From an uncultured Pelagibacteraceae bacterium (GTDB lineage: Bacteria > Pseudomonadota > Alphaproteobacteria > Pelagibacterales > Pelagibacteraceae): 64,000 bases of DNA. Each line of letters begins with the position of its first letter. Position 1 is the first letter of the stretch. A program made the translations under genes and the position numbers. Where the stretch lies: assembly GCA_902585045.1 (NCBI GenBank), contig CACICB010000001.1, forward strand, positions 124,001-188,000, read 5' to 3'. Positions 34,433 to 41,387 of this stretch are shown here, one piece after another. The notes under the pieces were generated by a model, which did no database searches, had not been told where the DNA came from, and saw only the letters and a list, made by a program, of their open reading frames with translations.

Positions 34433-36817
34433 TTAGTGAGTGCTGATTTCTTCTTTTGCTTTTTCTTTTTTACTTATTTGATCAACTTCAACCCAGTCAA
34501 CTCTTTTAAAAGGTTTGGTTAATGCTACCTTTAAGACTTCCTCAATATTTTTAACTGCAATTACCTCGATGGAATCTAGTATGGTTTTCGGGACTTCAAC
34601 TAGATCTTTTTTATTTTCAATTGGTATTAAAACTTTTTTTATACCTGCTCTGTGTGCAGCTAACAGTTTCTCTTTCAAACCGCCAATTGGGAGAACTAAA
34701 CCCCTTAATGTAATTTCACCTGTCATTGCAACATTTTTGTTAACGGGTATTTCTGTAATTGCAGAAATTATTGAGGTTACCATACCTACACCTGCTGAAG
34801 GTCCATCTTTTGGTGTAGCTCCCTCGGGAACATGTATATGAAAATCTTTTTTATCAAATATTGGTGGTATAATTCCATAATCTAAACTTTTTGATCTTAT
34901 ATAAGACTTTGCAGCTTTAACTGACTCTTGCATTACATCACCAAGCTTTCCTGTAATTTGCATTTTTCCTTTCCCCGGCATCACAGCTGACTCTATTTTA
35001 AGGATTTCACCTCCAACTTCTGTCCAAGCTAGTCCAGTAACAACTCCTATTCTGTTTTCCTCTTCAATTTCACCATAGTTAAATTTTTGAACTCCTAATA
35101 AGTCTTTTAAATCTTTTTCTTCCAAAGAATTATTCACTTTCTCTTTATTATCAATTTTTTTTACCAATTTTCTAGCAATTTTAGAAATTTCTCTTTCTAA
35201 ATTTCTTACACCTGACTCTCTTGTGTAGTGTCTTATAATTTTTCTAATTATATTTTCTTCAACATTCCACTCGTCTTTTTTTAATCCATTGTTTTTACTT
35301 TGGTTTGGAATTAAAAATTTTTGGGAAATTTTTAGTTTTTCATCCTCTGTATAACCTGAAAGTCTAATTACCTCCATTCTATCTAATAATGGAGGTAAAA
35401 TATTTAATGTATTTGCAGTTGTAACGAACATTACATCCGATAAATCATAGTCAACCTCTAAATAATGATCGTTAAAATCTTTATTTTGTTCTGGATCCAA
35501 AGCTTCTAATAATGCCGATGAAGGATCGCCTCTGTAGTCATTTCCAACTTTGTCTATCTCATCTAAAAGAAAAAGTGGGTTTTTGGTACCTGCTTTTTTC
35601 ATCATTTGGATTATTTTACCGGGCAGTGAACCTATATAGGTTCTTCTGTGACCTCTTATTTCTGCCTCGTCTCTTATTCCACCTAATGAAATTCTAATAA
35701 ATTTACGGTTAGTAGCTTTAGCTATAGATTTACCTAAAGAAGTTTTGCCAACTCCAGGAGGTCCTACTAAACATAATATTGGACCCTTCATTTTCTGGAT
35801 CCTTTTTTGAACAGCTAAAAATTCGATAATTCTCTCTTTAACTTTTTCAAGGCCATAATGATCTTCATCAAGAATTTTTTGAGCGTTATTTAAATCGGTA
35901 TTTATTTTTGACTTATTTGACCAAGGTAACTCTGTCATCCAATCTAGGTAGTTTCTAACAACTGTTGCTTCAGCAGACATTGGGCTCATAGATTTTAATT
36001 TTTTTAATTCAGATAGACATTTTTCTTTAGCTAATTTTGGCATTTTTGCTTCTGTGATTGCTTTTGATAAATTAGTTAATTCATCTTTTCCTTCATCTAT
36101 TTCACCTAATTCTTTTTGAATAGCTTTTAATTGTTCATTTAAATAATACTCTCTTTGAGTTTTTTCCATTTGGTTTTTTACTCTTCCACGTATTTTCTTT
36201 TCTACTGAAATAACACTTGTTTCTTTTTCAATAAATGTATGTATTTTTTCTAATCTCTTTTTAAGGTCAACTATTTCAAGTAGTTCTTGTTTTTCAAAAA
36301 TTTGAATATTTAAGTTTGATGAAATATTATTTGCTATATGAGAAGGGTTTTTCATATTTTTTAAATTATTTGACCCCTCATTTAAATCCTTTTTATTTAA
36401 AATTTGCAATTTTTCAAATTTTTTGACTAAACCAACGGCAAATAATTCCAAGTCTTTTGAAATGTTTTCATCTTCTACCACTTCAACTTCGCAAGTTAGA
36501 TAGTTTTCTTTTTCGTTGTTATGTTTTACAATCTTTACTCTTTTTTCACCCTCTACAAGTACTTTCACAGTTCCGTCAGGAAGTTTTAAAAGTTGAAGCA
36601 CTTTACTCAAACAACCATATTGAAATAAATCTTTACTTTCCGGATCGTCAATTTCAGAATTTTTTTGCGTTACTAAGACTATTGATTTATCTGATTTCAT
36701 TACCTCTTGAAGAGCTTTAATTGATTTATCTCTTCCGACAAATAAAGGAACTACCATTGAAGGAAAAATCACGATATCTCTTAAGGGTAATAGAGGCTTT
36801 AAATAAGTTGTTTTCAT
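34433..36817 (-). CDS. lon: ATP-dependent protease La (Lon)
   Basis: Cytosolic AAA+ serine protease for misfolded and regulatory proteins. The 794-aa protein has the N-terminal LON substrate domain (LPLRDIVIFPSMVVPLFVG), Walker A GPPGVGKTSLGKSIA, Walker B FLLDEIDKV, and the protease domain with the catalytic Ser in KDGPSAGVGM and Lys in GGLKEKLLAAHRAG. Full length. No Shine-Dalgarno lies before its ATG; instead a sigma32-like promoter ends only a few bases upstream (separate entry). Follows clpX by 50 nt. Confidence 0.97.
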   Translation of the reverse strand: MKTTYLKPLLPLRDIVIFPSMVVPLFVGRDKSIKALQEVMKSDKSIVLVTQKNSEIDDPESKDLFQYGCLSKVLQLLKLPDGTVKVLVEGEKRVKIVKHNNEKENYLTCEVEVVEDENISKDLELFAVGLVKKFEKLQILNKKDLNEGSNNLKNMKNPSHIANNISSNLNIQIFEKQELLEIVDLKKRLEKIHTFIEKETSVISVEKKIRGRVKNQMEKTQREYYLNEQLKAIQKELGEIDEGKDELTNLSKAITEAKMPKLAKEKCLSELKKLKSMSPMSAEATVVRNYLDWMTELPWSNKSKINTDLNNAQKILDEDHYGLEKVKERIIEFLAVQKRIQKMKGPILCLVGPPGVGKTSLGKSIAKATNRKFIRISLGGIRDEAEIRGHRRTYIGSLPGKIIQMMKKAGTKNPLFLLDEIDKVGNDYRGDPSSALLEALDPEQNKDFNDHYLEVDYDLSDVMFVTTANTLNILPPLLDRMEVIRLSGYTEDEKLKISQKFLIPNQSKNNGLKKDEWNVEENIIRKIIRHYTRESGVRNLEREISKIARKLVKKIDNKEKVNNSLEEKDLKDLLGVQKFNYGEIEEENRIGVVTGLAWTEVGGEILKIESAVMPGKGKMQITGKLGDVMQESVKAAKSYIRSKSLDYGIIPPIFDKKDFHIHVPEGATPKDGPSAGVGMVTSIISAITEIPVNKNVAMTGEITLRGLVLPIGGLKEKLLAAHRAGIKKVLIPIENKKDLVEVPKTILDSIEVIAVKNIEEVLKVALTKPFKRVDWVEVDQISKKEKAKEEISTH

Positions 36818-36867: not shown

Positions 36868-38121
36868 TTAAGCTACTGATGTTGATGATTTCTTGCCATA
36901 TGTGACAATGGGCTCTGAGACACCTTTAACAGAAGATTTATCTACAGTAACTTTGATTACATTATCCATGTCTGGTAACTCAAACATTGTTTTCAACAAG
37001 ATGCTTTCTAATATTGACCTTAATCCTCTTGCCCCTGTTTTCTTGAAGATTGCTTTTTTTGCTATTTCAAATATTGCATCTTCTTTAAATTCTAAAGTTA
37101 CATTTTCAAAATCAAATAATCTTTGATATTGCTTGATTAAAGAATTTTTAGGTTCTGTTAAAATCTTAACTAAAGAAGTCTCATCAAGATCATCCAGTGT
37201 GGCAATAATCGGCATTCTTCCAATAAATTCTGGAATTAAACCATACTTAATTAAATCTTCAGGCTCCAACATTTTCATAATTTCTGAAAGTGGTTGCTCC
37301 TTGTAACTTTTTACTTTTGCACCAAAACCTATAGAACTACCTTTTCCTCTGCTGTCAATAAGTTTATCTAATCCAGCGAAAGCACCACCGCAAATGAATA
37401 AAATATTAGTAGTATCAACTTGCAAAAATTCTTGTTGAGGGTGTTTTCTACCTCCTTGTGGCGGCACACTCGCCACTGTTCCTTCCATAATTTTTAACAA
37501 GGCCTGTTGAACTCCTTCACCAGAAACATCTCTAGTGATTGATGGGTTTTCTGATTTTCTACTAATTTTATCTACCTCATCTATATAAACAATTCCTCTC
37601 TGAGCTTTTTCAACATTATAATCAGCTGCTTGTAAAAGTTTTAAAATTATATTTTCTACATCCTCACCTACATAACCTGCTTCTGTGAGTGTGGTAGCAT
37701 CTGCCATGGTAAAAGGAACATCTAATATTCTTGCTAACGTTTGAGCTAACAAAGTTTTTCCACATCCAGTAGGACCAACAAGTAAAATATTTGACTTTGA
37801 AAGCTCTACATCTTTACTATTTTTAGTTTCATGACTCAATCTCTTGTAATGATTGTGAACTGCCACAGATAAAATTTCTTTTGCAAGCTTTTGTCCAATT
37901 ACATATTCATCCAAAACACCACAAATTTCTTTTGGAGAAGGAACACCTTCTTGATGTTTGACCAATGAGCTTTTATTTTCCTCTTTAATGATATCCATGC
38001 AAAGCTCGACGCACTCATCACAAATAAATACGGTAGGACCAGCAATTAGTTTTCTAACTTCGTGTTGGCTTTTTCCACAAAACGAACAATATAAAATATT
38101 TTTATTATTTTTTTCAGTCAT
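36868..38121 (-). CDS. clpX: ATP-dependent Clp protease ATP-binding subunit ClpX
   Basis: AAA+ unfoldase that feeds ClpP. The 417-aa protein has the N-terminal C4 zinc-binding domain ([19 protein letters not shown]), Walker [16 protein letters not shown], Walker [11 protein letters not shown], sensor motifs, and ClpP-contact IGF-type loop region (SSIGFGAKV). Normal length. Lies between clpP (79-nt gap) and lon, the conserved tig-clpP-clpX-lon order. Confidence 0.97.
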
Positions 38122-38200: not shown

Positions 38201-38812
38201 TTATTTTCTTTTTTCCACAACTGAATCAATTAAGCCAAATTTTTTAGCCTCATCAGCTGTCATAAAATTATCTCTCTCTAAAGCATCGGATATTTCATTA
38301 ACGGATTTTCCTGTGTGTTTGGAATAAATTTTATTTAGCCTCTCTTTTAATGATAAAATTTCTTTTGCATGAATTTGAATATCAGTTGCTTGACCTTGAA
38401 ATCCAGCTGATGGTTGATGGACCATAATTCTAGAATTTGGTAGAGAATATCTTTTACCTTTTTCGCCAGCAGCCAATAAAAAAGAGCCCATGGATGAAGC
38501 TTGTCCTATACACAAAGTAGAGACAGGAGAGTTTATATATTGCATTGTGTCATAAATACCTAAACCAGCTGTAACCAATCCTCCTGGACTATTAATATAA
38601 AAATTTATCTCTTTATTTGGATTTTCTGACTCTAAAAATAAAAGTTGAGCGGTAACTAATGAGGCAACAGCATCATTCACAGGACCTACTAAAAAAACAA
38701 TTCGTTCTTTTAAAAGTCTTGAGTAAATATCATAAGCTCTTTCCCCTTTGCTTGTTTGCTCAACAACCATTGGGATGAGACTATTCATTTTTTCATCAAA
38801 TTGACGACTCAT
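38201..38812 (-). CDS. clpP: ATP-dependent Clp protease proteolytic subunit ClpP
   Basis: Serine protease chamber of ClpXP/ClpAP. The catalytic Ser lies in [14 protein letters not shown], the His in [12 protein letters not shown], and the Asp in the LERDNFM region. The track begins at a TTG; I prefer the ATG at 38812 ([20 protein letters not shown], 203 aa), in line with family length. Starts 22 nt after the tig stop. Confidence 0.97.
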
Positions 38813-38834: not shown

Positions 38835-40205
38835 TTACTTTTTACTAATTTTTTTTGATTTTGTCTTATTTTTAGCTTGGGATGAGGTTTTAGTTTTCTC
38901 ATTAACTATATTTGGTTTATTGAATTCTGCAATAATTTTTTCAGCCTCTTTTTCATTAACCTCTTTGGTAGTAACATTAATTTTTGATTTAATAAGTTCT
39001 AAAATTTTTTCTTCATAGATTGAACCTTTCAGGCTCTGGAATGCGCTAGGATTTTTTTTATAATAATCTATAACCATTTTTTCTTGACCTGGCATACCTT
39101 GTATTTGCTTTTGTATTTGATTTTTAACTTCATCATCCGATACTTTAAGATTATTTTTTTCACCATATTCATTCAATAATAATCCAAGTTTGATCCTTGA
39201 TTTAGCAAGTTTTTCATTGTTTATTTTATTTTTTTCTTTTTCGTCAGGTTTAAGATTTTGTGTCAATATTGAAATTTCTTGATCAATCAGATTTTGAGGT
39301 AATTCTACCTCGTGATTTTTTTCAATTTGGTCTAAAATTTCTTTTTTAGTTTTTGAATTTAATACTTGTAAATATTGACTTGAAATTTGTTTTTCTATTA
39401 AAGATTTTAAATCTTTAATATCTTTTGCTCCCATTAATTTTGCAAAATTATCATCTATTTTAACATCTTTAGGTTTTTTTATATTTAAAATTTTACATTC
39501 AAATTTCGCTTTTTTATTCGCGAGTTCTTTTTTAGGATGATTTGCTGGAAGAGTTGCGTCTAATTTTTTTATGTCATTTTTCTTTACTCCAATTAATTGT
39601 TTGTCAAAACCTCCAAGAAAAAGGTCTTTACCTAGTTCTAGTTGTACTCCCTTGCCTTCACTTCCCTCAAATTTACTTTCATCAACGGTAGCTGAATAAT
39701 CAAAAATAACCTGATCACCGTTTATTGCTTTTTCGTTTTCACTTTTATCCTCAAATTGTTTATTTTGATCAGCTATTTGTTTTAATCTTTCATCAATGGT
39801 TTTACCTTCTATTTTTACTTTAAAACTTGTAGCTTTAAATTTATCAAAACTTTGTAAATTTACACTTGGTAAACAATCTATCTGAAGCTCATAGTTTAAA
39901 TCTTTGCCTTCACCAAATTGTTTTAAATCAATTTTTGGCTGTCCAGCAATTTTAAGTTTTTTTTCATCTATCGCTTTAGCGGTTGTTTCTCTCAAAATTT
40001 TATCTACCACCTCTCCATAAATTGATTTACCAAATTGACTTTTTATTACTGCAGGCGGAACTTTTCCAGGCCTAAAACCTTTTAAGGCAACTTCTTTTTG
40101 AAGCTCTTTAAGTCTTTCATCCAATTTAGTTTGTACATTCTTTTTATCTACTATTACAGATAAGATTGTCCTTAAACCTTTTTTTGATTTTACTTCTACT
40201 TTCAT
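38835..40205 (-). CDS. tig: Trigger factor
   Basis: Ribosome-bound chaperone. Domains in order: N-terminal ribosome-binding domain with the signature GFRPGKVPPAVIKSQFG (residues about 42-58), the FKBP-like prolyl isomerase domain (NGDQVIFDYSATVD, ELGKDLFLGGFDKQLIG), and the C-terminal chaperone arms, ending in a Lys-rich tail. 456 aa is normal. The ATG lies only 7 nt after the encoded CCA of tRNA-Leu, with no Shine-Dalgarno, so its mRNA must be made from a joint transcript with the tRNA or start inside it. Confidence 0.96.
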   Translation of the reverse strand: MKVEVKSKKGLRTILSVIVDKKNVQTKLDERLKELQKEVALKGFRPGKVPPAVIKSQFGKSIYGEVVDKILRETTAKAIDEKKLKIAGQPKIDLKQFGEGKDLNYELQIDCLPSVNLQSFDKFKATSFKVKIEGKTIDERLKQIADQNKQFEDKSENEKAINGDQVIFDYSATVDESKFEGSEGKGVQLELGKDLFLGGFDKQLIGVKKNDIKKLDATLPANHPKKELANKKAKFECKILNIKKPKDVKIDDNFAKLMGAKDIKDLKSLIEKQISSQYLQVLNSKTKKEILDQIEKNHEVELPQNLIDQEISILTQNLKPDEKEKNKINNEKLAKSRIKLGLLLNEYGEKNNLKVSDDEVKNQIQKQIQGMPGQEKMVIDYYKKNPSAFQSLKGSIYEEKILELIKSKINVTTKEVNEKEAEKIIAEFNKPNIVNEKTKTSSQAKNKTKSKKISKK

Positions 40206-40212
40206 AATTATT

Positions 40213-40297
40213 TGGTGGGCAAGAAGAGACTCGAACTCTTAAGCCTTGCGGCACTGGTTTCTAAGACCAGCGCGTATACCAATTCCGCCACTTGCCC
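40213..40297 (-). tRNA. tRNA-Leu (anticodon TAG)
   Basis: The minus strand reads GGGCAAGTGGCGGAATTGGT, anticodon arm CTGGT-CTTAGAA-ACCAG, a long class II variable arm (TGCCGCAAGGCTT), then GAGTTCGAGTCTC and an encoded CCA. GGGCAAG pairs with CTTGCCC. Anticodon TAG decodes leucine. The 3' end is 7 nt from the tig start codon. Confidence 0.97.
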
Positions 40298-40325
40298 AAT
40301 GTTAACGAATTTCTTATATATCAAA

Positions 40326-41387
40326 TTAATTTTTTGTTAAACGGTAAAGTCTATAATAAATTATCACATAGATTAACAAAAGCATAAAAAACCAATATTT
40401 ACTTAAGTCTGGTTTATCTGAAAAATATATCCCGGGTATAATTAAAATTAGAAAATTAAAGTTTACAAAAATTGAGTTTAAGAAATTACTTTTCTCTTTC
40501 CCATAAATTGTAGAAATCTTGTAAAAACTTAGCATATGTAAGTGGCTATCATCTGGATAGAAAGGAGATTTTCGATTGTATAATTTTCTAAAAAAAGAGA
40601 AAAATACCTCAAAAAAAAGATAAAACAAAAGAGTACAGAAAAAAAATGAAGAAATATTAGAATTTAAATTGTTAGTAATAATTACATTTAAAGCGAGTAA
40701 TGATCCTAAAAGATAAGCACCTCCATCGCCAAGGAAGATTTTCGCTCTCGGAAAATTAAATAATAAAAAGGAAAGTAAAATAATTATTTGACCGATAAGT
40801 ATAAAGGATAACTCGAAATGTGAATTTTCTAAATTAATATATATTAATACAGAATTAATTATTAATAAATGAATTGTAAGCATACCATTAAATCCATCAA
40901 TTAAATTTGCACCATTTATTATAAATAAAAAACACAAAACTACAAAAATTGAAGATAGAAAATTATTTTCAATAATTGATTTTAAAAAAATTAATTCTAC
41001 GTGAAGAATTTTTAATTCAAAAAAATATATAAAGGAAAACAGAGTAATAATCATTAATATTAGTCTTTTCGTTGGAGTAATTTTAATTTTAAGATCATCT
41101 AAAAAACCTACAAAAAATATTATTGAACTTAAGAAAATATAGTTGAGTAAAACATTTGAAAATAGCAAATAATATATTCCAAAAAGAATATAAAAAGAAA
41201 ACAAAACTGCAATCCCGCCACCTCTGCTAATCGGATTTTCATGAAATGCTTGAGGTTTTGCAAAATCCATATCTAAAAGTATTCCGCTTTTTATTTTATG
41301 AGAATATTTACTTACTAGTAAAAAAATAAAAAAACTAATTAACGCAAAAATAGATAAAAAGCTTGCTTCAATTGACTCGTTTTCCAT
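40326..41387 (-). CDS. Polyprenyl-phosphate glycosylphosphotransferase (MraY/WecA family)
   Basis: Integral membrane protein of 353 aa with about ten hydrophobic segments. Family motifs: ISRGGGIAVLFSFY, FVGFLDDLKIKITPTKR (the Asp pair), NGANLIDGFNGM, FPRAKIFLGDGGAYLLGSLL and the C-terminal PDDSHLHML resembling the WecA-type substrate motif. These point to transfer of a HexNAc-1-phosphate from a UDP-sugar to undecaprenyl phosphate, starting a surface glycan rather than peptidoglycan (MraY proper lies in the mur cluster). It overlaps the transporter gene upstream by 20 nt. Confidence 0.85.
   Translation of the reverse strand: MENESIEASFLSIFALISFFIFLLVSKYSHKIKSGILLDMDFAKPQAFHENPISRGGGIAVLFSFYILFGIYYLLFSNVLLNYIFLSSIIFFVGFLDDLKIKITPTKRLILMIITLFSFIYFFELKILHVELIFLKSIIENNFLSSIFVVLCFLFIINGANLIDGFNGMLTIHLLIINSVLIYINLENSHFELSFILIGQIIILLSFLLFNFPRAKIFLGDGGAYLLGSLLALNVIITNNLNSNISSFFFCTLLFYLFFEVFFSFFRKLYNRKSPFYPDDSHLHMLSFYKISTIYGKEKSNFLNSIFVNFNFLILIIPGIYFSDKPDLSKYWFFMLLLIYVIIYYRLYRLTKN

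Follow-up and report, generated by a model that had tools for sequence, protein, structure and literature searches.

Seven nucleotides between a tRNA-Leu(UAG) gene and the trigger factor gene: a probable streamlined variant of the tRNA-mRNA operon in Pelagibacterales

A trigger factor gene whose start codon follows a tRNA gene almost directly raises the question of how its mRNA is made and how ribosomes begin on it. In the window, which is the whole 64,000-nucleotide stretch of Pelagibacteraceae DNA analysed here, the minus strand carries in order a tRNA-Leu(UAG) gene (40213..40297; ARAGORN; Rfam RF00005, 61.1 bits) ending in an encoded CCA (40215-40213), the spacer AATAATT (40206..40212) and the ATG (40205-40203) of tig (38835..40205; 456 aa). 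The tig product scores 341 bits against TIGR00115 (cut-off 180) and holds the complete trigger factor domain set by NCBIfam and Pfam, with ribosome-binding (Trigger_N), PPIase (FKBP_C) and C-terminal (Trigger_C) domains. A wrongly assigned start codon was ruled out, since the Trigger_N alignment begins at residue 1 and M1-K2 is invariant among 13 aligned orthologues. Chance adjacency was likewise ruled out by the conservation described below and by shuffling of the window, in which a tRNA end followed within 0-25 nt by ATGAARRT was expected 0.00 times. The original prediction that tig begins 7 nt after the tRNA CCA is thus exact by ARAGORN, Rfam, the open reading frame and the Trigger_N start, and its claim that a promoter could not fit into the 7-nt gap was correct. 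These seven nucleotides are all that is available as tRNA 3' trailer and, at most, as tig leader, and they form a candidate RNase E cut site.

When the spacer was compared across Pelagibacterales, all 17 relatives first examined (51-86% protein identity) had the same tRNA, a gap of 6-10 nt and the tig ATG, and tRNA-Leu(UAG) lay upstream of tig in each of 22 further genomes picked across genera, including ones missed by the pattern search. Counted together, 40 Pelagibacterales tig loci divide into 34 with 4-16 nt between the genes (median 10; shortest 4 nt, in G090) and six with more; close relatives did not share a longer spacer, the finding that had been named as refuting the proposal. The pattern search matched 158 of 197 Pelagibacterales genomes, and among the matches listed at least 69, assigned to the tRNA-Leu(UAG)-tig pair by sequence and not translated singly, had a T-stem like that of verified tRNA-Leu(UAG) and spacers of 4-16 nt; they comprised 49 distinct spacers, 95% A+T, two of them with a Shine-Dalgarno-like triplet. 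The Pelagibacterales spacer is therefore A/T-rich, conserved in length and variable in sequence. It is not obligatorily short, given spacers of 54-116 nt in four genomes of family f1 (L115, L117, L118, L123). In one of these (L123, G125) the tRNA-Leu(UAG) ahead of tig resembles a different, possibly foreign tRNA, and 116 nt downstream, directly before tig, CCTACCA+ATAAAATTT resembles the original tRNA 3' end, a pattern that replacement of the tRNA would leave. In two others (L117 and L118, from G181 and G072) the 115-nt spacer contains inverted copies of the tRNA D-arm/anticodon region (GGTAGTCGCGTTAGTCTTA, AACGCGTCTACCAATTCC).

The pairing itself extends well beyond this order. Among 69 alphaproteobacterial genomes outside Pelagibacterales, mostly one per family, 57 have a co-oriented tRNA-Leu(UAG) gene a short way upstream of tig, with a median spacer of 69 nt. 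Elsewhere in the phylum, the same tRNA precedes tig at 9 of 26 loci outside the alphaproteobacteria, some gammaproteobacteria included, and there it often closes a Pro-Arg-His-(Lys)-Leu tRNA array. A linkage confined to SAR11 is ruled out by these pairs and, since they are so widespread, the pair is, to judge from its distribution, ancient, the speciality of Pelagibacterales being the loss of the spacer. Pelagibacterales spacers differ from those of the 57 other alphaproteobacteria at p = 5e-12 (Mann-Whitney, relatedness ignored). Within the 57, a spacer of 16 nt or less occurs only in G403 (7 nt), G522 (10 nt) and G424 (12 nt), all with loci of 30-33% GC; similar spacer loss has occurred in a few other AT-rich lineages. 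Overall, spacer length and GC correlate weakly (rho 0.26, p 0.054).

Downstream of tig on the minus strand follow clpP (38201..38812, 22 nt behind tig; TIGR00493), clpX (36868..38121; TIGR00382) and lon (34433..36817; TIGR00763), each above cut-off, while the upstream gene, a glycosyl transferase of family 4 (MraY/WecA-like; 40326..41387, minus strand; Pfam PF00953), lies 28 nt ahead of the tRNA. The order is that of the tig-clpP-clpX-lon cluster of Proteobacteria, and the proximity of tig to clpXP is already known (PMC7804408); the window's cluster differs in being headed by a tRNA gene at 7 nt.

We searched for promoters in the 60 nt ahead of the tRNA and the 60 nt ahead of tig. In the window, a predicted -35 element TTAACA (40335..40340, minus strand), within the final codons of the gene upstream, and a predicted -10 element TATAAG (40313..40318, minus strand), ending 15 nt ahead of the tRNA, are separated by 16 nt (p = 0.03 against order-1 shuffles) and would place the transcription start near 40306. 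Promoter-like elements of the form TTGACA-like -35, 16 nt, TATAAR were found 13-20 nt ahead of the tRNA in the window and in L002, L014, L016, L017, L108, L113, L119 and L120 (shuffle p 0.005-0.04), other genera reading TGGACA or TTGATA, 16 nt, TATAAA; in eight other loci, among them f2, g4 and L107, the element was not significant. Most of the Pelagibacteraceae examined preserve this architecture, and one architecture with differing -35 words suggests a maintained promoter. In nine representatives the 60 nt leading up to tig, spacer included, contained no promoter-like site (p 0.36-0.97). A promoter-like element thus stands before the tRNA, and neither the tRNA nor the spacer contains one; tRNA-Leu and tig are therefore very likely transcribed together, which supports the dicistronic tRNA-mRNA transcript of the original prediction, and transcription continuing from the upstream gene may contribute as well. 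The pair shows several attributes of a tRNA-mRNA operon, namely one strand, no promoter-like site between the genes and, judged by sequence and outside f2 and g4, a predicted promoter upstream of the tRNA. In family f2 (L112, L114, L121, L122, L124, L127) the sequence ahead of tRNA-Leu is strongly conserved (ATAGTCTATTTTGCATTTTCTATTAA) and does not match the TATAAR element seen in the other family; it is perhaps another promoter type.

For the processing of such a transcript we surveyed the enzyme repertoire of 13 Pelagibacterales genomes. All 13 encode an RNase E/G above cut-off, and none encodes an RNase Z above the cut-off of the one model used, a model that was likewise matched only below cut-off in 5 of 14 control genomes. 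Two RNase Z candidates were rejected: a 259-aa MBL-fold protein scored best against other MBL families, and a second protein, of 355 aa and hydrophobic at its N-terminus, fell well below RNase Z cut-offs. In E. coli, tRNA 3' ends are made by an endonucleolytic cut a few nucleotides downstream followed by trimming (PMC4681348), and in the metU precursor RNase E makes its cut 2 nt past the tRNA (PMC4191395).

We regard the following scheme, taken as a whole, as moderately probable. A sigma-70-type promoter just ahead of tRNA-Leu(UAG) would yield a single transcript, tRNA first, that runs into tig and probably continues through clpP-clpX-lon. RNase P would make the tRNA 5' end, and an endonuclease would cut the A/U-rich spacer right behind the CCA; in view of the failure to find a canonical RNase Z, RNase E is the likeliest candidate. 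Exonucleases would finish the tRNA end, and the downstream fragment would be a tig mRNA with a leader of 0-7 nt, on which ribosomes would begin without a Shine-Dalgarno sequence, as on a message with a short leader or none. The gene order would descend from early Proteobacteria, with the Pelagibacterales spacer shrinking as the genome was streamlined. Against the scheme count the relaxed spacers of the four f1 genomes and the single RNase Z model with its poorly matched controls; moreover, a 5'-monophosphate left by RNase E could make the tig mRNA short-lived, and a cut at the CCA would remove the Shine-Dalgarno-like AGGA or GAGG that genera g2 and g5 hold inside 11-12 nt spacers. Given the A/T-rich spacer and the enzyme repertoire, the processed mRNA is the likely translated form, one of the two possibilities originally proposed being that tRNA 3' processing releases a short-leader tig mRNA.

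The claim that the spacer leaves no room for a Shine-Dalgarno sequence stands for the window, where none precedes tig, and fails for g2 and g5, lineages in which initiation may differ from that in other genera. Gene statistics were compiled with a simple ORF caller from the 64-kb window and 300 kb of the complete genome G001. Four-base Shine-Dalgarno matches occur at 13% of unambiguous starts in the window against a background of 10%, and at 13% against 3% in G001. Absence of the motif is normal in this clade, and the motif-free tig start is weaker evidence because such motifs are rare in these genomes anyway. In Caulobacter, also an alphaproteobacterium, 375 leaderless mRNAs are translated as efficiently as leadered ones (PMC4117421), and the first 20 nt of the processed tig mRNA are predicted to be unpaired.

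Two other accounts of how tig is expressed bear on this scheme. The ribosome might initiate on the uncut dicistronic RNA, the folded tRNA acting as a 5' structure that shields the mRNA until 3' decay of the message halts at the CCA and frees the tRNA. The predicted fold of the dicistronic RNA, with the acceptor stem ending about 11 nt ahead of an unpaired AUG, agrees with such initiation, as does the prevalence of starts without a Shine-Dalgarno sequence, and the motif retained in g2 and g5 suggests that ribosomes begin on an intact spacer there. A folded tRNA 11 nt from the AUG should, however, clash with the 30S footprint, another tRNA-gene pair has a 1-nt spacer, and the 3' side of a tRNA is as a rule cut quickly, by an endonuclease, so that we consider initiation on uncut RNA unlikely. 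Less probable still is a separate tig promoter inside the tRNA gene or the upstream gene, giving a leader that carries unprocessed tRNA sequence: the 60 nt before tig lack a promoter-like site in all nine representatives, and the TATACG within the window's tRNA reads TAGACG in other genera. Processing behind the CCA thus remains our preferred reading of tig expression.

Whether this arrangement regulates anything is a separate matter, on which other tight tRNA-gene pairs bear. In the window's genome 10 of 26 tRNAs are followed on the same strand by an ATG within 15 nt, and in G001 10 of 30 within 12 nt. The genes concerned are of unrelated function: those for NAD kinase (6 nt) and GalE (12 nt), that for the CCA-adding enzyme behind tRNA-Gln(UUG) (7 nt in L032, G000; 6 nt in L189, G001), and that for an acyl-CoA ligase behind tRNA-Leu(CAA). 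The last, with 1 nt (CCA-T-ATG; L198, G001) or 4 nt (L043, G000) and N-termini that align, is the tightest tRNA-gene junction seen and leaves hardly any leader. The gene hisS, for histidyl-tRNA synthetase, starts 5 nt behind tRNA-His (L181, G001:C1, tRNA 412994-413067), so that a synthetase gene abuts its substrate tRNA; the tRNA-Gly-tuf spacer of the window's genome is 35 nt. Gaps between same-strand coding sequences are just as tight (medians -1 and 3 nt). The tig spacer is one case of genome-wide compaction, and compaction explains its origin. That nothing more than compaction is at work, tig having lost its promoter and leader when tRNA read-through sufficed and its level being independent of regulated tRNA processing, we hold to be likely: the tight pairs serve unrelated functions, coding gaps are minimal, spacer sequence is unconserved and spacer length can relax. 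Compaction is compatible with the proposed mechanism and competes only with a regulatory reading. The original suggestion that trigger factor output would be tied to tRNA maturation gained no support as a form of regulation. A wider reading posits genome-wide tRNA punctuation in SAR11: some ten genes, among them tig (with clpP-clpX-lon behind it), hisS and the CCA-adding enzyme gene, would need tRNA excision to obtain a leaderless mRNA, so that chaperone, protease and tRNA-maturation genes would track the rate of tRNA maturation. We think this wider reading unlikely.

Among known systems, the E. coli operons metY-nusA-infB and thrU-tyrU-glyT-thrT-tufB resemble the window in placing the tRNA first and the protein gene downstream under one promoter, with the tRNA freed by RNases. 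In those operons the mRNA retains a real leader with a Shine-Dalgarno sequence, whereas the whole leader in the window would be 7 nt at most and has none. Release of the tRNA from metY-nusA-infB is cited in PMC2777011. The tRNA-Leu-tig junction is real and very likely a streamlined variant of the tRNA-mRNA operon. It also resembles tRNA punctuation in animal mitochondria, in that an almost leaderless mRNA would owe its 5' end to tRNA excision; tRNA-to-start distances are 7 nt in the window, 4 nt at the shortest tig junction and 1 nt at the acyl-CoA ligase pair of G001. Unlike in mitochondria, a minority of SAR11 genes is involved, the CCA is encoded, and the processing predicted from the genes would fall to bacterial RNase P and RNase E rather than to mitochondrial RNase P and ELAC2. 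With the leaderless mRNAs of Caulobacter and Sinorhizobium the tig mRNA would share translation without a Shine-Dalgarno sequence at or near the 5' end (PMC4117421), but those mRNAs begin by transcription at the AUG, whereas the 5' end of SAR11 tig mRNA would come from tRNA processing. In the literature searched, which comprised open papers only so that absence proves little, we found neither a map of SAR11 RNA 5' ends nor any description of the tRNA-Leu-tig junction. Pelagibacterales (SAR11) are among the commonest groups of ocean bacteria, and the locus is a clean case in which streamlining leaves an mRNA without a leader or promoter of its own and would merge tRNA processing and mRNA production into one event. 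The interesting part is this consequence for mRNA 5' ends: each genome offers about ten defined junctions where RNA 5' ends bear on mitochondria-like punctuation and leaderless initiation in bacteria.

Two observations concern tRNA-Arg(UCG). The pattern matches from family f2 (L048-L076) were rejected as tRNA-Leu-tig junctions and instead consist of tRNA-Arg(UCG) and, starting 7-11 nt behind it, a conserved open reading frame of 199 aa (MKIYKPFGPTIGK...), a second conserved tight tRNA-gene pair. In G000 the tRNA-Arg(UCG) gene (L041, G000:C7:16515-16589) ends in GCAC-AA with no encoded CCA, unlike the 25 other tRNAs; in G001 its CCA is encoded.
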